50,180 nt of DNA from IMG/VR virus record IMGVR_UViG_3300021963_000185, positions 1 through 50,180 of that record; one strand, 5' to 3'. Source of the DNA: a virus. The notes beneath the pieces were generated by a model. The model had not been told where the DNA came from, did not search any database, and saw only the letters and a list, made by a program, of their open reading frames with translations. The translations under genes were made by a program, and so were the position numbers. This document shows positions 12,376 to 50,180 of this stretch, in pieces. Position 1 is the first letter of the stretch. Each line of letters starts with the position of its first letter.

Positions 12376-15300
12376 TACGAACGCTCCCTAGCTATCGATT
12401 CGGCACGCTTTATTTTCTGCATAACAACATTAGCTATTTCCTCTGGAGAGTTGGTGCCACCATTGATGTGGAATGTGTACGTATTTCCTCCGCTAGTAGA
12501 GCTTCCAGGAACGACTATCGGGGTGGATGAATTCACCGCAGGCGTCATAGTGTCGCCGATTGCTCCAGGCCCTGGAACCACGTGAAGATGTCTACTACCA
12601 GACGTTCCGTGGAATTCCGCAAAACCTCCAGATTGACGAGTCAATACAGCGTACTGCCCTAGATTTTGGCCGACTAGGTCTATTGCTCTTCCAGTGACAT
12701 GGTCCGAGTTGATGGAGCCAAGATTGCCGGTTCTATACGAAGACGTAATTGTTCTATTCCCAGTCAATTGACCGTTTATTGCGCTGTGTCTGGCCATCGT
12801 CTGAGATAGACGGGATGATGTTGTGTCTCCAACGGACGAGCCTCGTGGCGTTGCTGTATCCGCCTCCTTTGCAACCATGTCAATAAATTTCTGAGTCATC
12901 CATTCAGGCTTATTTGTGCCGCTAAAGTACGCCGATATGTTTGACGAGAAGTTGTCAACAGCCGTTTTAAACGTATTGCTAGCGGTATCCATCTTGTCTG
13001 CAACGAGATTTGCTCCTTCGTCCATTTCACTGAGGGATATTTTTCCTGTTTGTCCATATTGAGCAAATACCTTGCTGGCTTGAGCTTGCATGAACTCAGA
13101 TTCGGTTTTAAAACCGGCATCGGTAATCATTTTGTTTTTTTCTGCATCGGTTTTGTTAGCGAGAGGATTATTAAAGTTAATCTTTCCTCCTTCATAATCG
13201 AGCAAGAACTTCTGCCTATTGGCATCACTCATGCCCGATATGAGACCGCCTATCTGCTTGTCGTTGGCAATGAATCCCATATTTGCCATTTGCGCGGATA
13301 TGTCGGATGATGCAGTTCCAACGAATCCCTGCTCTGTGCGCTTGTTTTGTTCGGTAAGAGCGCCAGAAACCCTGTCGGTAAAGAATTTGTTAGGGTCGAT
13401 TCCGTACATAAACCCGCCGGGCTGGAATGCGGCTCCTGGCGCGTCCTTTGTACCAAGCTGTTGCTGCTGACCGTATAGAGCCTGAATCGGGCTGTCGTAC
13501 ACTGCTAGCGAAGATTCTTGGAACTTCTTGAGGTTTTCTAAAATAGCCTTATCACCTGCGCCAGATTCAACAGCACTGGCAAGAGCAAAGCCAGCTTCGT
13601 CATATATTTGTGGGTCAACAATTTGCTTTATTGCCTCATCAAATGCGCTAATGCCCTGGACAAAGGAGTCAATGTTCAGATTTTTTATTTCTTCTGCTGT
13701 TTTTCTGGTTGCCAATCCGAGCTTTGTTACTAAGTCGGTAAAATCAATCATTGGGTCGTAGAGGTTTACACCCATACTTTTTGCTAGCTGCTCTAGTTCT
13801 GCGCCGGATTTTCCGCTTGCATCCTGTAGCTTTTTCATTCTGTTTGTAGTTTGCTCGTCGATGGTTTTCATCGCATCGATTCTGTCCGGCAAACCTTTTT
13901 GCAATTCCTTAAAACCGGAAGCTTCGTCTTTGTCCAATTTCTTAAGTTCTTCTTCAGAGAACAAGTCCTTAAACGCTGGGTCTTTTAGGGCATCCTTGAA
14001 AACTGCTTTATCTTTTTCTAGTTGCTTTTTACGCCCACCTCTATTGAACAGACCTTTCACCCCGCCAGCTATTCCGCCAACAAGACTGCCGATAGTTCCA
14101 CCTATCGCTGCTCCTATTCCGGCCCCTATCGCCGTGCCAAGTGGTCCGCCTATTGTTCCTATCGCTCCACCGACTAGCGCTCCAGCGCCTCCACCAATTT
14201 TTGCTCCACCCTTAGCCCAGTTCCCGGCTTGCTCCATGGTTGAATTGGCGTACTTGCCCTTGAATCCTCCCTTTTGTAGCTTTCCTTGCAGCTTTTCATA
14301 TTTGGCAGCAGTTTCTCCGGCTACGCCGCTGAAGGCCGCCCCCATGTTTGATATGTCTCCGCCGGCGGCAACTCTTCTTTCAACTGCTGCCGCTCTTTGC
14401 CCGGCGGCAACAAACTCTTTCATCATTATGTTGTCGAGGAATCCGTTCATTGCGGCCTTGGCTTCTTTTGCGCGGACCTTCATTCCGTTACTGAAGCCCA
14501 TTACAGCGCCGGTAATTGCGCCAAGAGCAGCACCTACTGCCGTACCAATTCCTGGAGCAATCATTGTTCCTATTGCAGCACCCGCTCCAGCACCAGTTAA
14601 ACCACCGGCTAAGCCGCTCTGCGATTTAAGCGCCGCGCCGCCAAGACCAACAGCAAGACCAGCAAGCGGGTTGAATTGTCCAACCATTCCGCCAAGAGCC
14701 ATTGCTCCCTGCATCTCTTCTGGCATGAACTGAGAAGCCATTGACATTCCCATACCAACGCCCATTTTGGCAGTCATTGAGTTGTTTATGCCGCCAATGC
14801 CAAGCTTTTCGTTTCCGAGAATTGCAGAACCAAGGGCGCTTTCTCTTCTGGACCTGTTTGCAAGGCTGAGCATATTCATTCTCGAGCCAACGCCAGTGCC
14901 CTTGCCTGAAAAGCCTTTTGTAGACACCTGGCCTGCTTCGTTAATAGTGCCTATCTGCTGGCCATTTTTAGTGCTAAGAATTCGGCCAGTTGGGACTTTT
15001 ACATCGTTGCCATCAGCATCCTTGACAGTTTTCATTTCCTGAAATGCGTATCTGCGCCCGGTTGTTTTGGAACGGAAAAGGTCATTTTCCCTTCCATCTA
15101 TGCCGAATGCTGGGTTATATTGGGCACGCCACATGCGAGTCATGAAGTTAACACGAGAGGTTGCTCCGGTTGTCCCCGAACCGCCTGCGCCCGGAGGTGC
15201 TGTTCCTGGACCGCCCATACCACCAGATGGCGAACCTCCGCCACCAGGGGCAGTGCCAGCGGTGTATCCAGTTCCTGGGCCTCCTGCACCAGACGAGAAT

Positions 15301-17624
15301 CGTGCCCCAGAACCAGGAGTTACGCCAGCAGCGAGTAACTTGCGTTCGGCTATCGCTCTTTCTGGGTCGCCTGGCGGTCTCATGGATACTTGATACTGAA
15401 GCTTTGCTATTTTGTCTGGGCTCATCGAAGCGACAATGCGAGGCTGGGATGTTGCGACCAGGGCTGTACTTGTTGAAGCGCCCGGCGGGGTATTGACTCC
15501 AGCCGTGTTTGGTACTTGCTCAAACACCTGTCCAGTACGACCAGTGATTCCAGAGCCAGGAATTAGTCTTCTGAATGTCCCAGGGTTATTTACCCATTTT
15601 CCTTTTTTGTTGTAGTAGCCGTTCCCTCTTCCGACAAGCTTTGCATCAGGATTTGGGTAGTTAGCTGGAGGATTCCTGAAGTCAAACGGCCATCTTCTGC
15701 CACCAGTTAGCGGTTGTCCTTGATTTGTGTAGAGAATTGGGCCAGTCTGAACAGCTGGTAGGTTTCGTCCACCCGTTGAGCCTGGGCCAATAGCTCCCAT
15801 GATTCTTTGACCAGGACCAATAGCCCCCATTGGTCTTGGGCCCGGCCCTAGTGCGGGATAAACCGGTCCAGGGCCTATTGCTCTAGGTGGTTGCGGGCCA
15901 GGTCCTATTGGACGTGGACCCTGTGGCGGCCCACCTCCTGGCTGTGTTGGTATCGGTCTTCCACCAATATTTACAACGGGTGTAGTTATGTTCACAGTGT
16001 TTGGGGCTATGGCATTGTCTTTACCTAGATAGCCACCCTTATGTCCTTTCATTTGGCGGAAAATAATTGCCAACGCCATAAGGCCAGCTCCGCCCTGCCC
16101 GCCAAACATCCCTGTGAACATGCCAAAAACGCTATTTAGCATCTTTACGACACCAGTTAGTCCGTTTACTAGGTCGTTAATGAATGGAAGAGCATCAAAA
16201 AATGCTTTTCTGAAAGTTCTGCTCATATCCATTATCGCGTTAAGCAGCCCACCAAACGATTCACCAAGCTCGCGGAGGTCGTCTTTATGCAGTATGACCT
16301 GCTCATTAAACTGGCCCATGGTGTCTTTGATGCCTATTTTTAGCTGTTCCCAGATTCCTTTGAACATGCCTTCAATCGCTTTGGCACCTTCTATGTAGGG
16401 TCTAAGATTCTCTTTGGTGATTTTGAACCATCTGGTTACCCTGTCCCACCAGCCGGCCATGTCTTTAAAGAAACCTTTTGTTTCTGGTAACCACTTACGT
16501 ATCAGTTTTACAAAGAAGTTTGATGTTTTTTCTATTCCACTAACGAGCGAGTCCATCATTGTCCCGCGCCCAAATTCAGCAAGCGAGCCAGAGACTCTTA
16601 ACAGGTCTCTTCTGATGATTCGATATATTTTCTCAATTGCCACTTTTGCTGGCCCAAGAAACTCTTGGCCAAAGTCACCAAAATCTGCTTTAAGAAGATT
16701 GAAGTATTTTTTTATTGACGCTATGAGCGTTAGGTTTACTGCTTCGAACTGACCAGCAACACCACCAAGCTTTGCAAGCTCTCCGGACATTATTAGAGAC
16801 TTGAGTTCTTTTTTGGAAGTGACTTTAGCTTTCTTTAGAGCATTCTCCATTTCTGGTCCAAGCTCTTTTGCTGCTGCTTTGACATCAGACATGCTCTTCT
16901 TGGAGTCATTCAGCGCTGCGATAACAGCACCGACCTGTTCAGCGGCTTGTGCGGGGTCTTTTCCTGCTGCGCCAAAATCCATAAGATTTTTCATCAGCCC
17001 ACTAGTTTTTGCTATCTGAGCAGAGTTCATTGACTTAGACATTGCTGCATAGGCTTTGTTTATCGCCTCGACACCCAGACCAGCTAAATCTGCATCCCTT
17101 TGCAGGGCGCGCATTGCTGCTCTTGTTTGGTTTATCCCAGCACCAAATGCCGGAGCACCTTTGCCCTTGAATGCGTACATTGCTGCCTGCGATTCGCGTT
17201 GTGCGGCGGCAAATGTCCCGAGCGCTACGGCGGCACTAGCCGCAGCCCCAGCTATAGCCGTCATACCCCATGCATAAGCTTTGTGCAAGTATTTGCCGGC
17301 AACGAACAGACCGTGTATACCGACCAACGCTGCAGATAGAAGTGCCATTTGGATGAGGGTTCCCTTAATAGCAAGACCCAGAACCTTGGATAGGCCCATG
17401 CCCATCATCTTGATTCCCTTGTCCATTGAGTCAAAGACTTTTCTGGTACGAGTTGCCGCAATCATGAATTGCGTCATTTGGGTTCCGGCAGTCGATGCGC
17501 CAGAAGAGAATCTTGACATTCTCCGTTCTAGACCGGTAACCGCTTTATCGAGGGCTTTTATTTCGGCAGCGCCTTGGAGGGCTCCCTTAACCTCAATATT
17601 AATTGTTGCTTCGGCCCTAGCCAT
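12375..17624 (-). CDS. Tape measure protein with C-terminal M15-like peptidase (1749 aa)
   Basis: ATG with GGAG five bases upstream. It is the longest minus-strand gene and follows the frameshifted chaperone, as tape measures do. In order it has an N-terminal helical region with a hydrophobic stretch (about 85-145), a helical rod to 540, a Pro/Gly-rich linker with repeated IGPGP (about 545-800), two glycine-zipper membrane-like segments (about 1000-1050 and 1135-1195), and a C-terminal peptidase-like domain. The latter has SDHVTGRAID (H1642, D1649) and RHLH (H1681), the zinc-ligand pattern of M15 D-Ala-D-Ala peptidases; it could open peptidoglycan during DNA entry. Two RFSSGA sites (R38 and R775) match the motif repeated in the giant ORF at 33905. 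Confidence 0.85.
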   Translation of the reverse strand: MARAEATINIEVKGALQGAAEIKALDKAVTGLERRMSRFSSGASTAGTQMTQFMIAATRTRKVFDSMDKGIKMMGMGLSKVLGLAIKGTLIQMALLSAALVGIHGLFVAGKYLHKAYAWGMTAIAGAAASAAVALGTFAAAQRESQAAMYAFKGKGAPAFGAGINQTRAAMRALQRDADLAGLGVEAINKAYAAMSKSMNSAQIAKTSGLMKNLMDFGAAGKDPAQAAEQVGAVIAALNDSKKSMSDVKAAAKELGPEMENALKKAKVTSKKELKSLIMSGELAKLGGVAGQFEAVNLTLIASIKKYFNLLKADFGDFGQEFLGPAKVAIEKIYRIIRRDLLRVSGSLAEFGRGTMMDSLVSGIEKTSNFFVKLIRKWLPETKGFFKDMAGWWDRVTRWFKITKENLRPYIEGAKAIEGMFKGIWEQLKIGIKDTMGQFNEQVILHKDDLRELGESFGGLLNAIMDMSRTFRKAFFDALPFINDLVNGLTGVVKMLNSVFGMFTGMFGGQGGAGLMALAIIFRQMKGHKGGYLGKDNAIAPNTVNITTPVVNIGGRPIPTQPGGGPPQGPRPIGPGPQPPRAIGPGPVYPALGPGPRPMGAIGPGQRIMGAIGPGSTGGRNLPAVQTGPILYTNQGQPLTGGRRWPFDFRNPPANYPNPDAKLVGRGNGYYNKKGKWVNNPGTFRRLIPGSGITGRTGQVFEQVPNTAGVNTPPGASTSTALVATSQPRIVASMSPDKIAKLQYQVSMRPPGDPERAIAERKLLAAGVTPGSGARFSSGAGGPGTGYTAGTAPGGGGSPSGGMGGPGTAPPGAGGSGTTGATSRVNFMTRMWRAQYNPAFGIDGRENDLFRSKTTGRRYAFQEMKTVKDADGNDVKVPTGRILSTKNGQQIGTINEAGQVSTKGFSGKGTGVGSRMNMLSLANRSRRESALGSAILGNEKLGIGGINNSMTAKMGVGMGMSMASQFMPEEMQGAMALGGMVGQFNPLAGLAVGLGGAALKSQSGLAGGLTGAGAGAAIGTMIAPGIGTAVGAALGAITGAVMGFSNGMKVRAKEAKAAMNGFLDNIMMKEFVAAGQRAAAVERRVAAGGDISNMGAAFSGVAGETAAKYEKLQGKLQKGGFKGKYANSTMEQAGNWAKGGAKIGGGAGALVGGAIGTIGGPLGTAIGAGIGAAIGGTIGSLVGGIAGGVKGLFNRGGRKKQLEKDKAVFKDALKDPAFKDLFSEEELKKLDKDEASGFKELQKGLPDRIDAMKTIDEQTTNRMKKLQDASGKSGAELEQLAKSMGVNLYDPMIDFTDLVTKLGLATRKTAEEIKNLNIDSFVQGISAFDEAIKQIVDPQIYDEAGFALASAVESGAGDKAILENLKKFQESSLAVYDSPIQALYGQQQQLGTKDAPGAAFQPGGFMYGIDPNKFFTDRVSGALTEQNKRTEQGFVGTASSDISAQMANMGFIANDKQIGGLISGMSDANRQKFLLDYEGGKINFNNPLANKTDAEKNKMITDAGFKTESEFMQAQASKVFAQYGQTGKISLSEMDEGANLVADKMDTASNTFKTAVDNFSSNISAYFSGTNKPEWMTQKFIDMVAKEADTATPRGSSVGDTTSSRLSQTMARHSAINGQLTGNRTITSSYRTGNLGSINSDHVTGRAIDLVGQNLGQYAVLTRQSGGFAEFHGTSGSRHLHVVPGPGAIGDTMTPAVNSSTPIVVPGSSTSGGNTYTFHINGGTNSPEEIANVVMQKIKRAESIARERS
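15288..15302 (-). other. RFSSG site in tape measure (residues 775-779)
   Basis: Encodes RFSSG followed by Ala, within a Gly/Pro-rich linker (about residues 770-830) between the N-terminal rod and the rest of the tape measure. The codons are cga ttc tcg tct ggt. It is identical at the peptide level to the inter-module motif of the 4174-residue ORF. The inferred role is a proteolytic processing site. Confidence 0.5.
17499..17513 (-). other. RFSSG site in tape measure (residues 38-42)
   Basis: Encodes RFSSG followed by Ala near the tape measure N-terminus. The codons are aga ttc tct tct ggc, different from those of the second copy. Cleavage here would remove about 40 residues. The inferred role is a processing site, by analogy with the polyprotein; other explanations are not excluded. 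Confidence 0.45.
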
Positions 17625-33805: not shown

Positions 33806-33828
33806 TTTTAGTAAATAGTTTACTAAAA
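33806..33828. repeat. Perfect 10-bp palindrome after the portal stop
   Basis: TTTTAGTAAA and TTTACTAAAA flank a three-base TAG loop immediately after the portal stop codon. The stem is AT-only except one pair per arm, weak for a terminator, but perfectly symmetric. It lies in the 99-base gap before the giant ORF. It may be an attenuator, an operator or an mRNA end. Confidence 0.6.
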
Positions 33829-33904
33829 ACATTGCAAAAAGACCAAAACTTCCCACGAACTAACTCTTTTGTCGTTTATTATCTTTCTTTGACAAAGGAG
33901 TCTC

Positions 33905-34429
33905 ATGTCAAAATCCTCGGCAAACCCTGCAATTCAGTACAAAGCTGCCACTCAGGGTGCTATAAATCTTGACGAAGCCAAGGGCATAGTCGAATGCTTC
34001 GTAGCCGGAATTGGTAACAAGGACTCGGTCGGCGACGTTTGTGCGCCAGGTGCGTTCTCGAAGAGCCTGATGCGCCGGAAGCCAAGAGTCGTGTGGGGAC
34101 ACAACTGGAACGACCCAATCGGCAAAGTTCTTGAAATATACGAGGTACCACCGAACGACCCTCGCCTTCCAGGAAAGATGCGCTCGGCCGGCATCGGTGG
34201 ACTTTATGCACGAGTTCAGTTCAACCTTATGTCAGAAAAGGGAAAAGAAGCGTTTGCGAGCGTTGCTTTTTTTGGTGAGGAACAAGAATGGTCTATTGGT
34301 TATAAAACAATTAATGCCAAGTTCGACCAGCAGATGCAGGCAAACGTCTTGTACGAAGTTGAACTTTATGAAGTGAGCCCTGTTCTCCATGGAGCAAACC
34401 AACTCACAGGAACAATTTCTGTTAAGTCA
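33905..34429 (+). other. Prohead protease domain (HK97 / S78-like) of the polyprotein
   Basis: Residues 1-175. GIVECFVAGIGNKDSVGDV, APGAFSKSL, H66 in VVWGHNWNDPIG, S130 in EEQEWSIGYK and E153/E156 in YEVELYEVSPVLHGANQ follow the order His, Ser, acid of phage maturation proteases. Full-length for this family is about 180-220 residues, so the domain is complete. It follows the portal, its usual neighbour. It would cut scaffold and capsid, and probably the rest of its own chain. Confidence 0.8.
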
Positions 34430-37400
34430 GACGAAAACTCTGCCGTCGCCGTTATGGAAAGAGCTGTTAGCTCAATAGCGGACATCGGAAATGCCAATTC
34501 TTCAGAACTGAAAGAAGTTCTAGATGCGCTGAAGAAAATAGCTTCGTCTGTATCGGAGGACGAGAAGTGCGGACCAGGCATGCCACACATGCAAAGACCA
34601 GCGACGCCTTCCGGAATGCCTTCTGCACCAGCAACAGGACCAGCTCCACGTTCGGTTGTAAAACCAACTAGACCGTCTATCCCGGAAAACCCAATGGTCG
34701 TAGCGCTTCGCAGGGAGCTTGTTGCACGAACAGGTTCTAACATTATCGTTAGGTCAGCGGGTGACAATGTTGTTGTGTTTGACCGCGTGATGAGTGATGG
34801 AACTGCGTCTACATACAGGCTCGCTTATCATTACGCAAGTGGCGAGTTCATGTTCGGCAAGCCGGAAAAAGTTAGTGCCCAGACCGTCTACACACCAGAG
34901 ACTCCTGGAGCATCTGGAGATGCATACTGGGGCGATGACTACTCCGAAATGCCTAAGTCTCTAGGATTCGATGAATTCTGGGGTTCAGGGTTCGGAAGTG
35001 AAATCAACTTCCAGGCAGATACAGGAAATGCTTTGATGGGGGTGATAGAGAGCCTTCAGCAAATAATTGATGAAAAGTCCGAATATGTAATACCGGTCGA
35101 ACCGACAGAGGCCTTTGAGTTCAAGCAGATGATTGACCCAGTGCTTGAGTACTACAAAGCAGATGCGAGAGTAACTGAGGAGGGGATTGTAGTTAAGTCG
35201 GCACACAATCCAGAGCTAATTGAAGCTCTTGATGTCGCGACTAAGTCCGTACTGGGAAAAATCCGAAGGGGCATTGGCGCTGGAAGGCGTCTTGATGCTC
35301 CAAATATTGGCGGAGGAAAGGGTCGCAGTAGAGCGGCTAGAGCAATCGGCGCTGCTACTGGTGGTGTAGCTGGAAATCTAGACCCGTCCAAGATTTCAAT
35401 GAATGACCCAGATGGTGACGGCTGGGCAAAAGAAGGCTCAAAAAATCCAGTGTGGGTTGGCTTTAAGAAAGCTACACAAAAACTTACTGGTGGTGGCAAA
35501 AAGAAGCCATCAAAAGATGAGCAAAGAGCTCGTTCTGCGGTAAACGCAGACAGACCTGGTCCGCCACGTCCAGGCACACAGAGAGCATGGGACGCCCCAT
35601 CGGTGCCTGCACCGCCACGTCCAAGCAGGGTCACGTTGACCGACGACGCCGGCGCAAGACTGCGCGAAGCAAGCCGTCAGCGGGCAAGAGAGCTCGGCTT
35701 TGATAGAAGCGTTGACCCAGCACCGCCACGCCCTCGAAAGAAACTCACTAACCAGGTAACAAGAGCTCCTCGTCCTGGTGATGGGGGTAGAAAACCGTCT
35801 GGTGAATCGATAGCCAACGCAATACGGCGTGAAACATCCGCATCAAGCCCTGTCCTGGGTCAGCAGCTAGCCAACGATATATCTAAGTACGGCTACCCAG
35901 AAGAAATGTCAACCGATGATTTGATTAGAACCGTCGCTGATTTCAGAAGAGAGCTGACTTCAGCAAGAAGAGATTTTGAAAAACTCCAATCGGACAGGTT
36001 CTCCGGAAAAGATGTTCCTTCAATGGAAATCAAGAAGGCAAGACAGCGTATTGATTCGCTTCGCCAAAGAGCATCCGTATACTCCTCGGAAATTTCAAAA
36101 CGTGACAAAGTAAAAGGCAACGACAGATTCTCTTCAGGGAAAGCGGTAACTCCAGAAGCAAAGCGCATGAGAAGACATGCCCCAATTGGAACTACCGGTG
36201 AATTTGACCTTCCGGAAGAAATAGCTGCAAGAGAAAAACACGAAGCATTTGTAGAGGAATTCAAAAAGCAAAACGGTTTTTGGCGCGATATCCCAAGAGC
36301 CGGAACAGTGAACTCCATGAACACTTCAGAAGAATGGCAGCGCGCTCGGGAAATTTCTCACAACGTAGCAATTCGGGAATGGGAAGAGACAGAGTTAAAC
36401 AGAAGACCAAAAGATTTTAGCGAAAAAGCAAGAGCATCCGTCGACTATCTGACATGGTACGGAAACTTCGCGAAGAGAATGGGTGGCTACCTCGATAGGG
36501 AAGAGGCAAGCGAAAACATTACTGACGACGAGCTAAGCGGCGCAAGGGCTGCAGTACTTGAAGTACTTGCTGAAAAGAGAGCCGTACCAGGTTCGAGAGA
36601 AGCTCTATCAAACCTAGAAAAAATGATGGATGATGCTGGATTCGGCCCTAATGGTCGCCACGAGACACCATGGGGCGGAAGAAAGAGAACATCTGTTACG
36701 GGATTCTCTTCTGGGAGAACAATAGATAGAAATGTCATGAAGTCTTTGAAAGACGACGGATTGGCGCTAGATGACGACGATGTCGTTGCTATTTTGCTTC
36801 CCAACTCAGGGCTTATTGTCCACAAAACTCTCACTGCTCGCAAAGATGACAGTTCCCTAAACTGGAAAAACATTCTTGGCGACAGCAAGGTAGAGCCAAA
36901 GGACCCGACTTCGCCAAGGGCAATGATTCGTCTAGATGCTGAGGGCTTCCAAAAACTAAGCGATGCCATGGACGCGGCAAACTCTGAGTTCGTACCTGGA
37001 CAGCTTTTGCCGCCACACATCGGAACGATAAAAGATAAAGATTTCCCATACTCTTATCCACCATCTACAAGATTCTCATCTGGCAGTAAATATGCACCAG
37101 AAATAGAGGACGAGCTGTGGCTCGACTCTGAACTGGGCGGCAACAGAGCGGCAGACAGAATTAATACCGAAAACGTCGATATGGAGATAGTTCCATCTTC
37201 CGACATAGGCCTTGATGGGCCAGATGCGGGAGCATGGACTGTTGTAGGTATGTACCGAGGGGAAGATTATGGCTCCGTCGACTATATCTACGAGACAGAT
37301 ACCTTTGATTCTGTAGAAGAAGCAAGACGATTCATAGAAACATATGACAGGTTGATAGAGGAAGAAATTAGACCTGGAGACCCAGAGTTCTTCCTTGACA

Positions 37401-40400
37401 TAAATAATTACAATAGAAGCAACAAAATATCCCTTGATGATGACCTTGACTCTGCCATAGACAAAGCAGTGCAAACTAGGAAGGATAGAGAGAATGCTCC
37501 GTATGACTACGGCAGCCTTATTTCTTCTCTTCTTTCTGATAGGGCACTAAATGTTTTTGGTGATGGGGAATCACGGTTCTCTTCTGGGCGCAACAAGGCA
37601 GAAAGACGCCAAGACGTCAAGAGGGTCATGGCTACCAACATGGCAGATAGGAAAGTAAACCTAGGGATACTTTCTCGTCGCATGAAGGGAGAAACCCTGG
37701 ACGAGGTTGGTAGGGCATACGGTCTAGATAGAGGAACCGTTCGCCAAATGGAGATGCGGGAAATGAAGCGCCTCAGAGATGGTGCAACTCCAAGCGAGAT
37801 ACTCGCCTACAGAATGGAAGGACTCACCCTCGACGATATGAGCAGAATGCTCGGAATGTCTCGTGAAGATGTAAGAAGAATTGAGTCTAGAGAAATAGCA
37901 CGCATGAGGCTCGACGGGCGCGATGGAAGCGACGCAATATTCGAGGGACGCAAAGCTGGATTGAGTCGCGAATCAATAGAGAGGATAACCGGCCTATCTG
38001 CAGACGACATAGAGACAAAAGAGAGAAAAGGATTCGAGAGAGCCGTAACTCGCGAAGATGTTTCTTATCAAATATTTGACAAGTATGTAACAAACTTTGG
38101 CGAAGATGAACTAACCGATGCAGAACTCGCAGAGGAGCTGGGAGTTAGTGAAAGAATTGTTTCCGAGGTGCGCGCAGGAGCAAATAAGAACATACTCGAC
38201 GCCCGTCGCGACATGGATGAATACTACAGAAGCCTTCCGGAACCAACTGATGAAGAGCTTCAAGCAGAGGCCAATTACTACGCAGATAACTTCGCTAGAG
38301 AGCAGGGTTTCAGTTCCTACGGCGAATATGAGGAGTACCTCTCCAGTGTGGGCAAAGAAGAAGGCGGAGCAAGGCTGTCTTCTGGATTAGTTCGTCAAAT
38401 GACTATCGAAAATCCACTACTAATAGGAACGCTTGCTGGTATTGCTAGCTCTAAGATTCAGAGAAGAAGAAGAGAAAGACTCGACGAGGATGAAGAATAT
38501 CTCGACGACGATGACAACGACGAGAGATTTTCTTCCGGTGCAGGCAAGAGCAGCCTTACGCCCAGCCAAAAGGTTGGCCAAAGGGTGTTTGATGAAGCAT
38601 CCAAGATAGCCAAAGAAGATAAGAAAGACATTTTCGACACAATGGATGCACTCATCTTTGATGAGCGCTTCGATTCCGTTAACCGTGGGGAAAAGCTCGA
38701 CACAAATGAGATGTATGCTCATATCAATGCCCTTCTTTACCCGGAGGGTGCTAAAGAAAGCAAGAAGCGCAGACTCTGGAGAAGAGAAAGACTCTCCTCT
38801 GGCGGCTCTTCTAGCGAGATACGTAAAAAGAAGCGCGCAAAAATAAAGCAGAAGGCATGGTCGGAAGAAGACCTCCAAAGATTCCGCGATAGAAACATAC
38901 TCAAAGCCAAGACACGCCCAGGAAAACGCAAGAACGGCCCATCTGCAGAAGAGTTTTCTTCTGGAAGAAAGAGGATAGACACCGCTGGAAGTTCAGCGCT
39001 GACTGGAGCATTCTATGATGCCGACAACGAAAGACTTGTTGTCGGGTTCAACAAGGGTGGCGTCTATGCGTATGACGGAGTAACCCCAGGAGACATAGAA
39101 GAGTTGCACAATGCCGAAAGCAAGGGTGCAGCTATGGCTTCAATCAAGAAGAAATACAAGGGCGTAAGGCTGTCTGAAGCAGACGACAGCCTAAAAGCAA
39201 CTAAGCAGGGCGACGAGTGGGTCGTTAACCCAGATAATGAAACAACATATTCAATATCCGAAGACGGCGGTGAATTCTTTGTTTTAAGAACAACTGGAAG
39301 TTACGCACGTGATGGTGGACAGTCTGGCGATGAGTACTACCACCCAGAGTCTTTCAAGAATATGGACTCTGCGATGAAGTGGGTAGAGCAGGACTTCTTG
39401 CCGTCAATTACTCCAGAGCCGTGGGACGAGGACGACTACGACGTAGACAGATTCTCGTCAGGTGGACCAGTTCGTGCCGCAAATCTTATGCAGTTTGACA
39501 CTCGTAGAAGCAGACGCGCTAGCAACATGACATATGACCCGCAGGATGGTCGTGTTGGTGTTACCTACAACGACGGTAGTGAACGGTTTTTCTCAGAGGT
39601 CCCATACGAAGCAGCAAGTTCTGCTGGTAACCCAGCAAAAGATATAGACGATTTTATCGATGACCTGGAAAAAGGAAAAGTTGGCAGAGAGGGCGGAAGA
39701 TTTAGCTCTGGTGCTGGCTCGGTGCCAAGAACTGATTGGGACTATTCATATCAGAAGTTCCCGCCAACAGAAGAGCAGGCAGTCATTGCAGATGCGGTAG
39801 CAACTGGTGAGAACGTGATTGTAAGAGCATTTGCCGGTACTGGTAAAACTTCTACTCTTGTAACGATTGCTGAAAGACTAAAGCGTCAAGACCCGAAGAA
39901 GAGAATCGTCTACATGGCGTTCAACAAGGACATTCAGCTTGAAGCTGAGGGCAGATTCCCTGGGAATACAGAGTCTCGAACTGGTGACTCAATCTCCTGG
40001 AACTGGGTCAAGCAGACGATGGGTAAAGCTTTCACTGACAGAATGGGCAGTAACGCACCTGAAAGAGTTAAATCCAAGGGGACGCGCAACAAAGATATAT
40101 CTGTTCATTTCAAGATTAAGCAGATGGAACATCCAGATGGTCTTAAAGACTCAACAACAGGAAGCCCTGTAGTTCTTGATGCGGTTGACGTAACAAAACT
40201 TGTAAGAGAGGCTGTTAAGCAGTTCCTTATCTCGGAAGATGATGAAATAGGCGCGCAGCACTTCAAGACAATCCAGAATGTTCCGCCCGTTCTGTTGGGT
40301 CACGCAAAAGCTATTTGGGATGACATGAACGACCCAGATGGCGTAATGAAGCTCGACAACTCAGTTTTCACAAAGATGTGGGCCCTATCGAGACCGCAGC

Positions 40401-43400
40401 TCAGCGAAGGTGTTGGACTATTTAAAGGAAAGCCGTCCGTAATATTCTTTGACGAAGCTCAGGACATCAACCCAGTAATGGCAAGAGTTATGCGCGAGCA
40501 GAACATCCAAGTCGTATTCGTTGGAGACAGCTACCAGGCTATTTACGGATTCCGTGGAGCATCGGACAGTCTAGAAAAAGCGGAAGCCGCATACGACCTT
40601 CCGCTCACTGGCTCATGGAGATTTGACAGCAAAATAGCTGGATATGCAAACAGATTCCTAGCATACATGGGTTCAAAAAACAGAATTCGTGGAGTCGGCA
40701 AGCCAGGCAATGGCGTTGTTGAACCAGAGTCGATGGTTGACCCAGATGCAATCTTGACAAGAAGCAACGGCGGAGCGCTCCGTGCAGTTGTGGAGCAAAT
40801 ACAGCTTGGCAGAACTGTAGGAACTTCTGAGAACTTCAAGAAGGACCTAACGAGATTTGCGTGGCACGCAGTAATGCTCAAGGCTGGTAAACAAGTAAAA
40901 AATCCACATGAGGAGCTAGAAGAATTCTCTTCATGGAAAGAGGTTCAGGATGCAGCCAGCGCCGAGGATGCAAGCCCGCGACTGAGAATGCTTGTGCAGC
41001 TATTCAATGACACGCCAAACATTATCGACATACTAGACCAGGTCGTTGTTGGGGGCAAGCTCAAGGGGGAGTCCGGTGGCGGCTCCGGCAAGAGAATTCT
41101 GCCGAGCGAAATAACAGATGGCTTTGAGATGTCTATAGACCCAGGCAGCATGGGTAAATGGGCAGGAGATAAGAAAACGCAGGTTTTGTATAAGAACGGA
41201 AAGCTGTTCTTGCAACTCCCATACACCAAATACCCTTCATCTGATTCGGATGCAAAGTTTGAGTGGCAAAAGCAAAATTTAAATCCGATAGGTAAAGTCC
41301 AAAAAGGTAAACCGGACGAAACAAATGGCAAATATGCAATCTGGGTTGACGCAACTCCAGAACAGGCAGCAGAGTTACTCTCTGGCATAACTTCAGGTGA
41401 TGCTCAAGAAGTTGACGTCATGGTAATGACGGCACACAGGTCAAAAGGTCTTGAATTTGGGAGAGTTCGGCTTTATGGAGATTTCCCAAGACCAAGACTC
41501 AACAAGAAGACCAACGAGATGGAGTACCCATCACCAGAGGAGCAGAGACTTCAGTATGTTGCGTCTACGAGAGCAATACGCGAACTAGACCCAGGCCCTA
41601 CAGACTGGATATACGGGGAAACATCAGAAGACGATGAAAGCCCAGATGTACCGGGTGGTTTCTCGTCTGGTGCAAGAGGCAACCCGATACCAAGCGCTAT
41701 TGGTAAGGATATGGTCCTAGAAGATGGCGGAACACTTGAAGACAATATGTTCAAGGGCACATACATCGCCGACTTTAATGGTGGAAAGATGGTCATCCAG
41801 CCAGCTGGAAGAGATTCGTGGGCTGTTTACCGTGCCGACTTCAGTGGTGGAGAAGATGGACCTTCTTACAGTTTCAGTTACGGACCGCCATCCGACGATG
41901 CAGAGTTTGGCTCACTGGCAGATGCGTACGAACATGTCCTGAACTACGTCAAGGAAAACGATATTTCTCTGGACTCTCTGGATGGCACTAGACGGTCAAA
42001 AGGTAGCGAGTCTTTCTCTGAGGCAAAAATTTCCAATTCAGATTCTGGAATTGCACAGAGATTTAGCTCTGGCCGCAAAGATGCGGATAAGAGACTTAAA
42101 GAAGCAAGAAAGTCTTCATCTAAGAAAGGCGACAAAGCAGAAGGCAAAGATTCGCGCCTAGATAGAGCAGTAGATGCTTACCTGAATTATGTGTTCGGCG
42201 CAAATCAATCATCTCGTCTTTCTTCGGGACGCAGTCAGGAAAACAATGGCGTAAGCAAGCGTGATGCTGAAGACGTTGAAATCTTGGCTAACTATTACAT
42301 GAATTCATATGGAGGATATGACGACGAGCTCGGGGACTGGCTAGACAGCAATCCAGGAAAGACAGAGAACGACTACATCTCCAGCCAGGAATTCTCGGAG
42401 AGAGTCGATGAGATGGAAAACGTTATGGCCGACGCTGGAGACAGTATGGCTGAAAACCGTCTTGATGAATATGCAAACCGCAGATTAGGTTCTGGGGCTA
42501 ACTCAGAAAGACCATCAGACGAAGATATCTACAATCTTAGAATGTCCGGCCCAACTCTTGAAGAGGTTGGCGAGCAGTACGGAATGACCCGCCAGGAAGT
42601 TCGAGCTGCCGAAATGCGCCACATAAGAAGAATGCGTGATGAAGGTTTTGAGTCAACTGGGACACCAACTTCGAGAAGAGAGCGTCGCTTGTCTTCTGGC
42701 GCTAACAGAGGAGGGATAAAAAGGTCGACAAACTCTGGAGTAGCGAGAAAAGATGGGAAGGTTGTCCTTGCGAGAAGAACCGAAGTCTCACAAGGTTGGA
42801 CTGGTGCCCCAGAAGAATATCTGAAGCCAGATGATGACTTTTTTGATGCAGAATCAGCATCAAGAATACTCAACAACCCCCTAGAGAGCTATAACGACCA
42901 AACCGGATGGCCGGTTCCGGCGAAAGAATTCTTCCAAAGTCTTGTTCTAGGCAGACCAGGCCAAGACGTAGATGTCATGGATGAAGACGGGAAATTCACC
43001 ACAGATGGACGTCTTAGAATCAAGAGTCTATTAACCGGCTCTGAGGCTGCAAAAGAGAAGTTTATAGACAGAATCGAATCTGGCGAAGTTTCTCATATGC
43101 AAGCAGTATCCGCAATGACTCTGCTTGAAAAAATCGGCATGAACGTCGGGGATGCTTCTGACCACATGTTCGAGACATTCGGATTCAAGTCGGCACCAGT
43201 TTGGGTTTCTGGCTTGGATGCAAGAGACCCGGACTACGACCTAATTAGGGGTGAAGTTAACTGGTCCCCGCTAACAGAAGAACAGTGGGTTGATGAAATC
43301 AAGCAGGCCTATGTAGACAACGCCAACATAAGTCAGTACGCAAAGAACAGAAGAGACTGGGTAACCAGAAATAAGGGCAAGTCAGAGAAAGATTATGAGG

Positions 43401-46400
43401 CGAGCCCTGAGTTTTTGCAAGACGCAAAACGGGCATATCTCTACAACAAGGGAGTTATGGGCCCTGCCGAAGTATATTCTCACCCATACTCACATTTCTA
43501 TGCAATGAGAGAAGACCAGAGAGATGCAGTAAAGAAGAACTGGCTTTCTCAGAACCCAGGAAAGACAGACGCTGACTACGACGAGGCGATGTCATGGGGT
43601 GGCGAAGGCGACCCAGACCTATCTCCTTTAGTTGGTGGATGGGGTTTTGGGGACCCACGAAAAGCCGCGTCAACAACTCTACAACCAGAAGCTGGCTCTC
43701 CGACTAAGAGGCCAGTATCACCTCAGCCATCGTCTTCGACTAAGTCTTCGCTATCTCCAGACACAACCAGAAGGCTATTCAAGGCGTTCAAGAGAGATGT
43801 AATACTTTCTGCTGCCGGAATAAATGAAGGAACAAACAGAGAAAAAGCAAAGAAACTCTCTGAGCTTGTCGGGTTTGACATCAATGAAGAGACATTCGAC
43901 AGATACAGAAAAGACGGCGTATCCCCACGTGTGGTAATAGAATTACTACGTAAAGGCCATATCAAAAACTTAAGTGGCATAGGTAATGCTGACCGGGCAA
44001 ACGACGACCTCAATGCGCTGGTTCGAGAGGCGAATAAATCCGTCTTTGTATCTACGGCTTTTGGAAGAATCAGAGAGGCGGCCAGGGCGGCAGGTCTTTC
44101 TGACGAATCTTTCGGAAGAAGCCTATGGAAAATGCTTAGCAAGGACCACGAAGTACACGTATTTGGCAAAGGTGACAGAGGTGTTCCAAGAAGCGGAATG
44201 GCAGATGGCGGAATACCAGCGACGTTCAACTTGAGCAAACTTGACCTACTAGGAGAGAGTGAACTAACAACTCTCGTTGATGGTCTAAACAAGATGGCCG
44301 AATCTGAAGGCTCTTCGGCAAGATTCTCCATAGATGAGATATTCCCAAGAGACGGTGACGCATTCGCTGACCCATTCGGTGAGTCGAAGATAAGAATGAG
44401 CAGCGGTGCTTCTCCGGTAAAGGGTCAACGCTTTGTAGCCAAGCCCAAGGAAAACAGATTGACTGCTGCAGCCAGGGAGACAGCAGAAATGCGCTTCTCC
44501 TCCGCAGCTAGACCTACGTACAGAACAGCCGGGGGTGGCATAGACAAAGATGCTATGTCTGCCGACATCGACGATGCAATACGCGGTCCAAGACTTGGTG
44601 CTGTCGCCATAACTACCGCCAACGCAGACAACGTTGGCAGAGAACAGATTGACAACCTTGCAAGAGCAATAACACTGCGTCAACACATAGCCGACATGTT
44701 CCCAAGCGTTGTTAACGATAGAACTGGTGTCTCCTACGATATAGAGCCACTACTTATCGAACAAGGGCTAGACCCCAAGGACGCGGAAAAGCTCACTGAC
44801 CTGGTTAATGACCTTGATGACTACATCGATGGCATCGTCGGGCAGTTCGAAGAAGAGGGAGACAAGCTCGAATCTGGACTGCGCCGCATGAACGACATGC
44901 TTGATGAAGTTGAAAGTCTTCGCAAGTACAGAAAAGAAACAATCGAGAAGTATGGCGAAGATGATGCAAGAAACCTGGTAGCAAGACTTGACGACAAAAT
45001 CAACAAGCTAACAACTTCAATAGACGAGGAATACCAGGCGACAATCGGCAGCAATAGAACAAATATGGCAAAACTCAGAGATGAGGCGCTTGCTCTTGTT
45101 GATGACAACCCCGGATTTGAAAAGCCCAAAGCTGGGTCAGACGGTCCTCGCCTATCTAGTGGTGCGAACTCACTTTCATCGAAGCTTATAGCCCTTGAAA
45201 TGTCGATGGGGCGCTCTGCTGAGGGCGGTCTTCCCAAGTACACCCCTGTTAGCAAGATTGACTTCAATGTTCCATCTGGAACAAGACTTTCTTCTGGTAA
45301 AGCGGACGAATGGTACGAAAACCTAACCGCAAAGTTGATTGAACAAATAGAAAAAGTTCAGGCATCAGGTGGAGACACGTGGCAGTTCCCTTGGCACAGA
45401 ACAACTTCCATGCCGAAGAACGGGATATCGAACCACGTATTCAGCGGCATGAACCCATTTGTTTTGATGCTTTCAGCAGATGAAAAGGGCTATACCAGCA
45501 ACAAATGGGCCACATATAACCAGTGGCAAAGCGTTGGTGGTCAGGTAAGAAAAGGCGAAAAAGGTACACAAATTCTGGCCCCAGTTTTCAAAAAGGTAAA
45601 AGACCCAGATACCGGCAAAGAGGAAACAAAACTAGTCAACTGGAGAACCTATTCGGTATTCAACCTTGAACAAATTGAAGGCATAAACCCAGACGACTAT
45701 AAAGACGACCCGAAAGAGCTTCTCGACGAAGCGGCGCGTGTAGAGAAGGTTGACAAGGCCTTCTCTGCGGTTGGGGCAGAAATAGAAACGGGTGATGGCT
45801 CAAGCGCACATTACAGCCCATCAAAAGACAAGGTAGTTATGCCTCCTTTTGCCTACTTCAAGACACCAGAGGGCTACTATGCGACTCTCGGTCATGAGTT
45901 GGTCCACTGGACCGGGCATACATCCAGACTAGATAGACCCAATATGAACCGCTTTGGGACGCCGGAGTACGCACGGGAGGAATTGGTTGCAGAATTAGGA
46001 GCAGCATTCCTAATGGCAAACTTCGGACTCTCTGCAGAGCCTAGAGAAGACCATGCCCACTATCTGGCCAACTGGCTCAAGGTTCTGCGCGAAGAGCCCA
46101 AAGCCCTCCAAGAGGCAGCTAGAGAAGCGCAAAAAGCTTCAAAACTGCTTATCGAAAAGATGAGGCAAGTGCTGGAAGATGCAGGCGTAGCGGAAGAGAC
46201 CATCGAAGATGTGGTCGAAGAAAAAACCGCAAAGGTAGGAATGTTTTCTGGGTCAGAGAGTAATTCTCTACTACAAGTAGCAGGGGCTCTCCCCGCCTAC
46301 CTCCGCATGGAAGTTGAGGCAGCAATTAAAAGCACCGCCTCAGAAGAGGTTCTATCAACTAAGGTTATTAACAGAATTTCAAAAACAATTGAACTTCTAG

Positions 46401-46516: not shown

Positions 46517-48034
46517 ATGGACAAAGAAATGCAGAACGCCCTAAGTATTGACGCCGACGGCAATATACTCAAATGCGCCAAGGGTGCCGACGCTTCTGCC
46601 TGCGGTTTCGAGGCTGGCTCAAAGATTTGTGGCAAATGTGGCGCTATTCCTACTCAGGTAAAAATTGTGCCCGTTGACGACGAGGAAATGGACGAAGAAG
46701 AAGAAATGACCGACGAAATGCCTGAAGAAGGCATGACGGACGAAGAGATGCCAGAAGAAGAAGAAATGCCGGAGGACGAAGAGGAAGAGGAAGAGGAAGA
46801 ATCCGATTCCGAAGACGAAGAGTCCATGGACGAAGAGAAGACGGCGTATTACAAAACTTACGGGTACGACAAGTACGTAAAGAAGTATGGCAAGAAGCCT
46901 TGGATGCCAGACATGGAAGATGATGAAGAGGACATGGAAGAATCCATGGACGAAAAAATGATGTCATCCAACAGCGGCAGCTCTCCGCGAAAGCAGAGAA
47001 GAATGGACCGCATGAAGGGCATGGACGAAGAGATGCCCGAAGACGAAGACATGGACGAAGAAATGCCAGAAGACGAAGAGCTCGATGACGAGGAAGAGAT
47101 GAAAGGCGCAATGGACCGCGCCTACAAGCGTCGCCTTGTTTCACTGGGCGTCAAGTCTGCTGACGTTGGTTCTTCCGGTTACCTGTGCGCCATCGACCGC
47201 AAGGCATATGCTGGCCATGTTCCTGTATGCGATAACTGTGAAGGCGGATGCGTTTCCGAAAAGGGAATGCCAGGCCTAATTCACGTAGAGGGAATGGCAG
47301 AAGAACTGATTGACGGTTCTGTTGTTGCATCTGGATATGCAGTGGCTAATGACACCTTTGTAGTTGACGTACAGAAAAAGTCAGGAAAGACATACGAAGT
47401 TTTCTACGAAGGCTCGACTGGTGAGCTTCTTGGCTTCCATAAGCTCGAAGACACTCTCAGCATCAAGTCTGCGCTTGATGACCTCAGAGTTATAACTCTG
47501 TTTGAGGCCGCCGACATTGCCGTCAAGGCAATAGATGGACACATCGTTGGAGTTGAGGCAGATTCTTTCGAAGGAATAGATGCTTTTGCTGTTGAGGTCG
47601 ACGGCTTTGACGGCAAGTCATACGATGTTTTTGTTTCACTGGACGGGGAAGTCCTCGGTTACGACAAGTACGAGATGGACGAAGCCGAAGAGATAGAAGC
47701 AGAAGCTGCAGAGATTGCCCTCAAGCGTGCGTTTAGTGACGACAAGAGAGAGGCTATGGCTAAAGAGGGAACCGCGATGGCGGATGGCTCCTACCCAATA
47801 GCAGGCGAAGAGGACCTAAAGAACGCAATTCAGGCATTTGGCAGAGCGAAGGACAAAGAAGCAACAAAACGTCACATCATGAAGCGGGCAAAGGAAATGG
47901 GCAAAGAAAACCTAATTCCAGCCAACTGGGTAATGGGCGGAGATTCAGAAAAGAAGTCTTCCGAAGTTGACGCAGAGCTGATGGCCTCACTAATTGAGTT
48001 CGAGCTTCTTCAGGCCGAAACAGAAATCAACTAA
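46517..48034 (+). CDS. Acidic Zn-ribbon / PepSY-like head-associated protein, DUF6582-like C-terminus (505 aa)
   Basis: ATG with AGGAG ten bases upstream. The N-terminus has a zinc-ribbon pattern C20, C29, C38, C41 (LKCAKGADASACG, KICGKCG). Residues about 55-205 are extremely acidic low complexity with Met/Pro (EEMPEDEEEEEEEE). A second cysteine set is C224, C238, C241, C245. Two PepSY-like beta units follow (TYEVFYEGSTGELLGFHKLE; SYDVFVSLDGEVLGYDKYEM). The C-terminal 70 residues (DGSYPIAGEEDLKNAIQAFG, TKRHIMKRAKEMGKENLIP) match the DUF6582-like motif frequent near phage capsid genes. A scaffold or capsid-assembly function is plausible because of its acidity and its place after the protease. 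Confidence 0.65.
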   Translation: MDKEMQNALSIDADGNILKCAKGADASACGFEAGSKICGKCGAIPTQVKIVPVDDEEMDEEEEMTDEMPEEGMTDEEMPEEEEMPEDEEEEEEEESDSEDEESMDEEKTAYYKTYGYDKYVKKYGKKPWMPDMEDDEEDMEESMDEKMMSSNSGSSPRKQRRMDRMKGMDEEMPEDEDMDEEMPEDEELDDEEEMKGAMDRAYKRRLVSLGVKSADVGSSGYLCAIDRKAYAGHVPVCDNCEGGCVSEKGMPGLIHVEGMAEELIDGSVVASGYAVANDTFVVDVQKKSGKTYEVFYEGSTGELLGFHKLEDTLSIKSALDDLRVITLFEAADIAVKAIDGHIVGVEADSFEGIDAFAVEVDGFDGKSYDVFVSLDGEVLGYDKYEMDEAEEIEAEAAEIALKRAFSDDKREAMAKEGTAMADGSYPIAGEEDLKNAIQAFGRAKDKEATKRHIMKRAKEMGKENLIPANWVMGGDSEKKSSEVDAELMASLIEFELLQAETEIN

Positions 48035-48050
48035 AGAAAGCGGACCCCAA

Positions 48051-50180
48051 ATGGCGGGTACGTTTACACACAAGACAAGGACGCTGGTATCGCCACGACT
48101 TGTTTCCCCACTTGCCGGAAGAAAAGACTTTATAGAAGCTGCCGAGGTATTCAGGCTATCTATTGGCGTGACTTCCAAATCAAACGTCCTAGACCCACAC
48201 ATGGCGGTAAAGGCCGCAATGGCTGGAGGAATGACCAGCCCTGGACAGGCAGACGATAAAAAACGCGCCAATAAGGGCGGCCCACCTGGCATGAAACATG
48301 AAGGCGATGGATATCGCTACATGCCTAATGAAGTTGCCGGACCGGGGAAATCTTTATATCTTTTCCCGTCTTATGAAACCAGAAACTCGTCGAAAATGGA
48401 ACCCAACTTTGGTTTCCTAGACACAGCTAAGCCCGTCTCTGTTGATGAGATGAAAAAGAAGCTTGCTGAATCTCCACGAATAAGAATGGAGAAGTACAAG
48501 ATAAACCCCAGAAACGGGGAAAAAATAGATGGCTCAGAAAAGCCAATGGACCCTCTTTACTTCAACAGGGAGCTTCCTGCAGAAAGAAACCCAGACCTGG
48601 ACGGTGTTGAGGAGAAAAGTCTCGGCGAATCACTAGGTAGAGCAGCTCGCGGAAGCAGTCTCGTCGGCAGAGTAGCTCAAGGGATAGGAATAGTTTTTGA
48701 CGAGCTAGGCAAAATGCGTTGCCCTCCTGGAACTCCGGCTGCAAATCAATTTACTGACGCAAATGGCTCAAATTGTTTTGGCGTAAGCCTGCCCAAACTC
48801 GTTGGGAAACTGGTAGAGCTAGCTAGGGAAGCAGCACCAGAAGGTGACGAAAGAAGAAGCGTCAAAGGAATACAAAAAAAGATTGCCAATCTAATTTTTG
48901 ACTTTGACAACAGCCGCTTTGGCAGAGTCTCGTGGTACGACGAAAACGGAAAGCGAATGGGCTTCGGCGAGTACAGAAAGTACCGCGAAAAAGGTGGTGT
49001 TGCGGAAGGCGAAAGATGGTTCGTCAATGCAATGGTCAGGGCCGAAGAGGAGTTCCGTCGCCAGGGCGAGCGCGTAAAAGAACTACAGGACAGACTGGGA
49101 ATAGATTCGTCAGACGATAAACGAGCAACAAACGCTGACCTAGTAGAGACGATAGAAAAGCTTAGAGAAAACGGCGTAATCAATACTGTAATAAGAAACA
49201 GGGATACGCCAGAGATAGTCGAAGCGCGAATAAAAGCAAGATTAGAAGCAGACCCAAGCTATAGGGCGTTGTCTAAAGAAGAAAAAGAAATCCTCATCAA
49301 GGGAGATATTGCTAGGTATTACGAAACAGAAAGAGCATCACTAGAAGCTTTTATAGATGAAGTAATCAAAAACCCAGAACATATCAAAGACGCAATAGAC
49401 ACTATAAGTTTTGTAAACGGAAGAGACCTGGATGATGGTGCTTTTTCGATTAATGGCGTAGTGGGCGGGGAAAGAATAAGCGGGAATATAGACCTAGACA
49501 TAACCCACATGATGGGCAGGCAAGAAAGCGAAATGCCCAATCTAAAAACAAATGAGAGACTAAAAATATACGCTGAAGGCGGTAAAACAGAAGCAGAAAG
49601 AGTCGCCCATCTCCACGACTTCTTAGTCAACTCAAATGCTTTTGCTACAAACATGGCCTGCATGGTTGAGGGTCCGTCTGGCATCGGTCGTCATACGATG
49701 AAACATGAAATAGCGCACTCCATACAGGCCAAAGCTCTTCATGAATACGTGAAAAACATGCTCGCAACAGGCGGGAGTATAAAGATTGGCAAAAGGGAAA
49801 TAACAGACCCATCGAAGCTGACAGCAGACGACATATACCTAATCATGCAGGGCAAAACAAGTGTCCCTCTAGATGCCATAAAGGGGCTTCAGACTAGAGG
49901 AGAGGCTGTTGCATTTCTGGCCGGACGTTACATCTGGGACATGAACCCAGAAGGCTCGCCAAACCGCTCCATGGAAATAGGAGCAGAACTTTGGGCGTTG
50001 AGAAGTCTTGGTCTTATATTTGGAGACGACATAGATGCCGCTCTCGAATACATGGATGACGTTTCGTTTGGAAAAACATTTACCGATAGAGCTGCGTCAG
50101 ATGCTGACGCAATTAGAGCTGTGGCAGACACTTACTACGATGCCGGGAGCAGAATTGCCAAGGAGCGAGCTGAAAGAGTA
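48051..50180 (+). CDS. Large protein with HEIAH metallopeptidase motif, 3'-truncated by window
   Basis: Starts at ATG 48051, 16 bases after the preceding stop, and stays open for 710 codons to the right edge. Residues 224-243 hold CPPGTPAANQFTD ... SNCFG (C224, C242). This looks like a small motif I have seen in phage proteins, but cannot name. HEIAH (552-556, in MKHEIAHSIQ) is a zincin zinc-binding motif; the surrounding sequence (RHTMKHEIAHSIQAKALHEY) is helical, as expected. Most of the rest is charged helix (EAAPEGDERRSVKGIQKKIA, EEFRRQGERVKELQDRLGID). No (R)(F/L)SSG motif is seen in the visible part. It could be an additional virion-packed protease or maturation factor. Confidence 0.65.
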   Translation, partial: MAGTFTHKTRTLVSPRLVSPLAGRKDFIEAAEVFRLSIGVTSKSNVLDPHMAVKAAMAGGMTSPGQADDKKRANKGGPPGMKHEGDGYRYMPNEVAGPGKSLYLFPSYETRNSSKMEPNFGFLDTAKPVSVDEMKKKLAESPRIRMEKYKINPRNGEKIDGSEKPMDPLYFNRELPAERNPDLDGVEEKSLGESLGRAARGSSLVGRVAQGIGIVFDELGKMRCPPGTPAANQFTDANGSNCFGVSLPKLVGKLVELAREAAPEGDERRSVKGIQKKIANLIFDFDNSRFGRVSWYDENGKRMGFGEYRKYREKGGVAEGERWFVNAMVRAEEEFRRQGERVKELQDRLGIDSSDDKRATNADLVETIEKLRENGVINTVIRNRDTPEIVEARIKARLEADPSYRALSKEEKEILIKGDIARYYETERASLEAFIDEVIKNPEHIKDAIDTISFVNGRDLDDGAFSINGVVGGERISGNIDLDITHMMGRQESEMPNLKTNERLKIYAEGGKTEAERVAHLHDFLVNSNAFATNMACMVEGPSGIGRHTMKHEIAHSIQAKALHEYVKNMLATGGSIKIGKREITDPSKLTADDIYLIMQGKTSVPLDAIKGLQTRGEAVAFLAGRYIWDMNPEGSPNRSMEIGAELWALRSLGLIFGDDIDAALEYMDDVSFGKTFTDRAASDADAIRAVADTYYDAGSRIAKERAERV

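Follow-up and report, generated by a model that had tools for sequence, protein, structure and literature searches.

A short motif shared by a phage tape measure protein and a protease-bearing polyprotein as a candidate processing signal

The tape measure gene, the polyprotein and their common motif

The DNA analysed here, referred to as the window, comprises 50,180 bases of the virus record IMGVR_UViG_3300021963_000185. On its minus strand lies the gene for a tape measure protein (TMP; Table 1), assigned by homology to phrog_167 and by its location behind the tail tube gene. Its neighbours encode the tail tube and the tail sheath, and the phage therefore has a contractile tail. Hydrophobic segments occupy TMP residues 81–103, 123–141 and 1026–1044, the first two of which are possibly membrane-spanning. 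Towards the C-terminus, an M15-type signature, SDHxxGxAxD followed by HxH, was conserved in 27 TMP relatives. Peptidase_M15_3 was matched in 24 of 27 members with weak E-values (best E 8e-4), and in the window TMP with an E-value of only 0.009, below the curated cut-off. A low-confidence model of the C-terminal part gave weak hedgehog-fold matches, and searches of PDB sequences with the TMP C-terminus and with the protease described below returned nothing useful. With the window TMP as query, tblastn gave zero matches in all phage records (50,697), and cultured phages were therefore dropped as models for this protein. A 290-aa open frame antisense to the TMP gene (13861–14733, plus strand) is most likely a by-product of TMP composition and not a gene.

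Direct reading confirmed that RFSSGA occurs exactly twice in the TMP, encoded by differing codons, as the sequence-only reading of this DNA had described. The sites themselves were right, with one adjustment in position: a start at 15288 spans RFSSG only, the codon for the final Ala starting at 15285 on the minus strand. The earlier placement of site 2 in a Gly/Pro-rich linker also held, Gly and Pro making up 40–43% of the 60 residues at and after the site. Two chance matches are improbable, as had been claimed; at least two matches to [RK][FLM]SSG appeared in only 2 of 20,000 shuffled TMPs (about 1 in 10,000), with a mean of 0.018 matches per shuffled protein and an expected RFSSGA count of 2.2e-4. 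By BLAST, the two TMP sites share no homology beyond the motif, and neither do the TMP and the polyprotein. A duplicated DNA or protein segment as the source of the sites was thus ruled out, in agreement with the different codons.

Among the coding ORFs of the window, [RK][FLM]SSG was found outside the TMP only in a polyprotein encoded on the plus strand, the remaining matches falling in non-coding frames; the claim that the pentapeptide is confined in this way was borne out. The domain order of the polyprotein begins with a Peptidase_S78 (prohead protease) domain at the N-terminus, continues with a sigma-like HTH, a KTSC and a UvrD helicase domain, and closes with ArdC-N and the zincin-like metallopeptidase MPTase-PolyVal, a set of conflict-related domains joined to a peptidase in one polypeptide, as is characteristic of polyvalent proteins. 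The S78 assignment is supported by a PF04586 score of 37.4 bits against a curated cut-off of 21. Around the putative catalytic His and Ser, the motifs WGHNWND and QEWSIG are, by eye, kept in the relative G027, and the phage GMA6 has WHHN and QEWSIG.

Downstream of the polyprotein, a 505-aa Glu/Asp-rich protein (46517–48034) has a C-terminal part (KDKEATKRHIMKRAKEMGKENLIPANW) similar to the C-terminal end of the protease protein in GMA6; it looks as though the cargo polyprotein had split the protease from a scaffold-like part. Elsewhere in the window, a PAPS-reductase-like protein (SGGKDSTAVLYLAKE) lies between two ParB-like proteins, all recognised by eye (minus strand, 23639–24778, 24944–25744 and 23092–23676). 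This set, possibly related to DNA modification or sulfur, recurs in G001 and L261, the latter a marine outgroup.

Table 1. Features of the window and of related records, with their positions and the basis of each assignment
Feature	Coordinates	Strand	Basis or remark
TMP, 1749 aa	12375..17624	-	phrog_167 tail length tape measure protein, E 5.3e-15; adjoining genes for tail tube and sheath
Predicted Peptidase M15-like (Zn DD-peptidase-type) domain, TMP residues about 1606-1687	12564..12809	-	invariant SDHxxGxAxD and HxH
Hypervariable Gly/Pro-rich linker, TMP residues about 540-845	15090..16007	-	alignment A2 and composition
Site 2, RFSSGA, TMP residues 775-780	15285..15302	-	direct reading; codons CGA TTC TCG TCT GGT GCA
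Site 1, RFSSGA, TMP residues 38-43	17496..17513	-	direct reading; codons AGA TTC TCT TCT GGC GCA
Protease polyprotein, 4174 aa	33905..46429	+	14 [RK][FLM]SSG sites (17 core sites)
Peptidase_S78 (caudovirus prohead protease) domain, residues 28-171	33986..34417	+	Pfam PF04586, E 3.7e-9
Polyprotein site RFSSG, residue 741	36125..36139	+	direct reading
Polyprotein site RFSSG, residue 1056	37070..37084	+	direct reading
Polyprotein site RFSSG, residue 1224	37574..37588	+	direct reading
Polyprotein site RLSSG, residue 1490	38372..38386	+	direct reading
Polyprotein site RFSSG(A), residue 1541	38525..38539	+	direct reading
Polyprotein site RLSSG, residue 1629	38789..38803	+	direct reading
Polyprotein site RFSSG, residue 1849	39449..39463	+	direct reading
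Polyprotein site RFSSG(A), residue 1932, directly ahead of UvrD-type helicase module	39698..39712	+	direct reading and Pfam
Polyprotein site RFSSG, residue 2719	42059..42073	+	direct reading
Polyprotein site RLSSG, residue 2771	42215..42229	+	direct reading
Polyprotein site RLSSG(A), residue 2928	42686..42700	+	direct reading
Polyprotein site RMSSG(A), residue 3497	44393..44407	+	direct reading
Polyprotein site RLSSG(A), residue 3749	45149..45163	+	direct reading
Polyprotein site RLSSG, residue 3794, directly ahead of ArdC-N/zincin module	45284..45298	+	direct reading and Pfam
Zincin-like metallopeptidase MPTase-PolyVal, residues 3947-4073	45743..46123	+	Pfam PF18818, E 1.8e-43; rival candidate protease
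Second large ORF, cut by record end	47994..50180	+	relatives carry more sites beyond about residue 1300
RNase_T modules of related polyproteins	L241 residues 3181-3368; L257 residues 1863-2041; L258 residues 1981-2160		LSSG sites flanking each time
Marine polyproteins	L263:6372-14441 (G027:C111); G029:18128-26026; G034:687-8390		

Distribution and conservation of the motif in relatives

Relatives of the protease are widespread in IMG/VR (540 protease matches), and among the 80 loci examined many have several to many [RK][LFM]SSG sites in the polyprotein ORF. In 11 records read fully or nearly so, the core [LFM][SA]SG was seen 204 times in the large polyproteins against 8.9 expected, and 28 times in all other proteins (245,000 aa) against 32.5 expected, hence with no enrichment. 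Outside the large polyproteins, the TMP was the one recurrent carrier of the motif. Within 11 polyproteins, that of the window and ten others, none of 133 core sites fell inside a Pfam domain, while 30.8 were expected there; often a module starts 3–50 aa past a site and stops some tens of residues short of the following one. G001 carries an RNase_T exonuclease module in its first polyprotein, and G004 and G008 each carry one in their second; LSSG sites flank it each time. This arrangement indicates that modules move cassette-like between polyproteins with sites on both sides, and the overall layout of the sites has the anatomy of a processing signal.

A profile search for TMP relatives returned 80 loci. 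In the first 14 relatives (52–100% identity where aligned) every covered site was kept, site 1 as RFSSGA, RLSSGA or KLSSGA and site 2 as RFSSGA or RLSSGA. We then considered a non-redundant set of 30 TMPs with less than 85% mutual identity, relatives at about 40% identity and up. The core was present near residues 35–40, at site 1, in 24 of these 30 proteins (0.1 in shuffles); for the hypervariable linker the figure was 25 of 27 (2.3 in shuffles). The core was absent from site 1 in six of 30 and from the linker in two of 27. Stray core matches elsewhere in the 30 proteins amounted to only a handful. Conservation in close relatives that keep the polyprotein, on which the sequence-only reading had made its proposal depend, was thus found for both TMP sites down to about 40% identity. 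Alignment A2 shows site 1 embedded in an otherwise variable stretch. Site 2 shifts from about residue 558 to 786 with linker length, yet it stays, although the linker itself cannot be aligned.

These counts bear on the idea that the sites are chance matches in a low-complexity protein. The TMP is indeed rich in Gly, Ser and Ala, and shuffled linkers contain the core in about 9% of TMPs, but the core is present in 25 of the 27 natural linkers and at the N-termini of 24 of the 30 proteins. The shuffles and the conservation together rule this explanation out, leaving it a negligible probability. The strict requirement for Arg or Lys at the first position did not stand up, as Gly, Ser and Ala also precede the core. 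On sequence evidence, the core motif is best written [LFM][SA]SG, with a preceding residue that is lineage-biased (Arg/Lys or Gly).

Another explanation is that the motif remains uncut and acts as a short docking motif or a flexible joint, serving the binding of a common partner or independent folding. Its sites are located in flexible linkers, where a spacer role is conceivable. A spacer, however, needs no invariant SSG core with a preferred Leu or Phe at site 1, which the structural model tentatively puts between two predicted helices and not in the Gly/Pro linker; the same model suggests that the linker is unstructured, its prediction for TMP residues 1–620 being poor (mean pLDDT 49). Other multidomain and tail proteins of these phages also go without the motif. 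A docking or joint function therefore appears improbable.

The TMP also seems to track the polyprotein motif across lineages, within limits. In the G014 lineage, the polyprotein sites read GLSSG, and the sole TMP site, located in the linker, is likewise GLSSG. In eight of ten paired records, TMP and polyprotein have the same residue ahead of the core; in the other two they differ. In the marine sister clade, the S78 protease is 75–79% identical to that of the window, and the polyproteins (about 2600 aa) contain no LSSG. Instead, they carry a repeated GLxSR(R)-like motif (GGLPSRRD, PAGLASRRN, HGFASRRP), which is possibly a switched cleavage code. The linker site is absent from all seven distinct marine-clade TMPs, two of which retain [LM]SSG at site 1. 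A search of the marine linkers for a GLxSR-type site gave one candidate (L273, GLTSR at 607), and such a site is not general there. The cultured Gordonia phages GMA6 and DalanDe, with S78 proteases 37–43% identical, have no LSSG polyprotein and neither TMP site. All of these contrasts reflect few evolutionary events and are uncorrected for phylogeny.

The clade differences could also have their origin in different hosts, if a host protease made the cuts and the polyprotein and the TMP were both its substrates. A precedent exists in phage T5, whose TMP is cleaved and for which a host role in the cleavage of a tail protein has been reported, in a 1973 paper cited in PMC10038345. Against a host enzyme, the polyprotein supplies its own protease or proteases, and only phages that encode the polyprotein have the motif; both are absent from GMA6 and DalanDe. 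We regard cleavage by a host protease as quite unlikely, though less so than an uncut joint.

Candidate proteases and the proposed processing

The polyprotein offers two candidate enzymes. The zincin-like metallopeptidase is carried in most of these polyproteins (20 of 23 records searched), and Iyer et al. 2017 proposed that such domains process polyvalent proteins (PMC5512222). However, the zincin was not found in G010, G011 and G013, records that are fragments, although the GLSSG polyproteins of G011 and G013 are complete; G014 has the zincin in a separate ORF. Moreover, it always accompanies ArdC-N as one module, as in ordinary anti-restriction proteins. Cleavage of the sites by the zincin is therefore unlikely in our estimate, if somewhat less so than cleavage by a host enzyme. 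The S78 domain is fused to every LSSG polyprotein examined, and since the zincin is missing (G011, G013) or separate (G014), S78 would be the better candidate. The separate zincin ORF of G014 (32963–36052, about 1,030 aa) itself has four core sites; the cargo of this GLSSG lineage is thus spread across several smaller polyproteins.

The major capsid protein (MCP) is the normal substrate of a prohead protease. The MCPs of eight relatives (G001:81440–82768 and those of seven further records) contained no [LFM][SA]SG, and this standard substrate therefore cannot calibrate the specificity of S78. A sequence L(S/T)SRE, conserved among them around residue 95, could represent either a helix cap or a cleavage site of related type. 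Since it is maybe a helix cap only and the MCPs are without the core, calibration by the MCP N-terminal cut was dropped. In addition, S78 sequence and motif are not tightly coupled, because the marine protease is 75–79% identical and yet the polyprotein motif differs.

Of the two proposals made in the sequence-only reading, a signal shared by the polyprotein and the TMP is well supported, above all by its conservation in TMPs and further by its restriction to these proteins and its placement between modules; cutting of the TMP in trans by the polyprotein protease is something that we infer, as we do cutting itself, the exact scissile bond, the responsible protease and the timing in assembly. 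The TMP and the polyprotein are separate proteins encoded on opposite strands, so any cut by a polyprotein protease must be in trans. We consider it probable that the core is a proteolytic signal common to both proteins and is cut in trans by a protease of the polyprotein, most likely S78. The fuller proposal, in which TMP maturation too is carried out in trans at the shared consensus by the head-type S78 protease of the cargo polyprotein and is thereby coupled to polyprotein expression, seems to us evenly balanced.

Under this proposal, the polyprotein would be cut at its core sites into modules, among them the protease, the sigma-like HTH, KTSC, the UvrD helicase and ArdC with the zincin. 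Two cuts in trans in the TMP, which is 182 kDa when intact, would be made by this enzyme as well, S78 at the N-terminus being the likeliest. A cut at site 1 would trim about 41 residues (about 4 kDa) from the TMP N-terminus. The middle piece, of about 78 kDa, would be helical and contain the hydrophobic segments 81–103 and 123–141, and the C-terminal piece, of about 100 kDa, would contain the segment 1026–1044 and the M15-type peptidase domain.

Comparison with known systems

The separate elements of this proposal are already known, namely TMP processing in lambda and T5, prohead proteases with a cleavage consensus, and polyvalent proteins. In lambda, the TMP gpH is processed proteolytically to gpH*. 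The T4 head protease gp21 recognises a single short consensus, at which it cleaves numerous substrates as well as itself. Head and tail usually assemble separately, a point that we counted against a protease shared between them.

In T5, the TMP pb2 is converted to pb2* and pb2C during tail assembly, and the cut, after R1127, splits off a muralytic metallopeptidase domain (PMC10038345); the 1973 paper, as cited there, describes the host involvement in tail protein cleavage as selective. Lambda and T5 resemble the present case in TMP proteolysis, which here is predicted from sequence alone. They differ in having a single cut near the C-terminus, whereas two sites are predicted here, near residue 38 and in mid-protein. 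T5 provides a precedent for parting the muralytic domain from the ruler, but the position of the cut is different: in T5 it lies between a hydrophobic stretch and the peptidase domain, while here site 2 (residue 775) precedes both the segment 1026–1044 and the M15-like domain. A repeated consensus shared with a phage polyprotein is not described for T5 (PMC10038345).

The head protease gp245 of SPN3US cuts many substrates, and itself, at an AXE motif; nine head proteins were identified as substrates, and the tape measure gp239, a tail protein, is not described as one (PMC10052503). In SPN3US the consensus is thus located in head proteins, whereas here it is located in the TMP and a giant polyprotein, and the MCP is without it. 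Bendigovirus GMA6 and DalanDe have tail sheath genes and a related S78, as here, but differ in the absence of an LSSG polyprotein and of either TMP site.

Polyvalent proteins of phages and conjugative elements have been proposed to enter the host by delivery and to undergo processing (Iyer et al. 2017, PMC5512222), and they are, as here, giant multidomain proteins with ArdC-N, zincin, helicase and nuclease modules. In that survey, assemblin-like (prohead-type) peptidases are always C-terminal, and neither a repeated consensus nor tape measures are mentioned; in the present polyprotein, S78 stands at the N-terminus and the sites can be read directly. Within the literature covered, which took in few subscription papers, we found no cleavage consensus common to a protease polyprotein and a tape measure and no N-terminal prohead protease in a polyvalent protein, and the top matches of a search for the motif itself were unrelated.

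The phages concerned form an environmentally widespread, uncultured, contractile-tailed group. For their large polyprotein family, the motif could serve as a cleavage code readable from sequence, from which products would be predictable in hundreds of metagenomic genomes, and two small protein fragments together with one protease domain would suffice for a direct test of which protease matures the TMP. If the proposal is true, tail length and release of the lytic domain are perhaps coupled to polyprotein expression too, and one phage protease consensus would be common to cargo on the head side and to a tail protein, across the usual divide between head and tail assembly.
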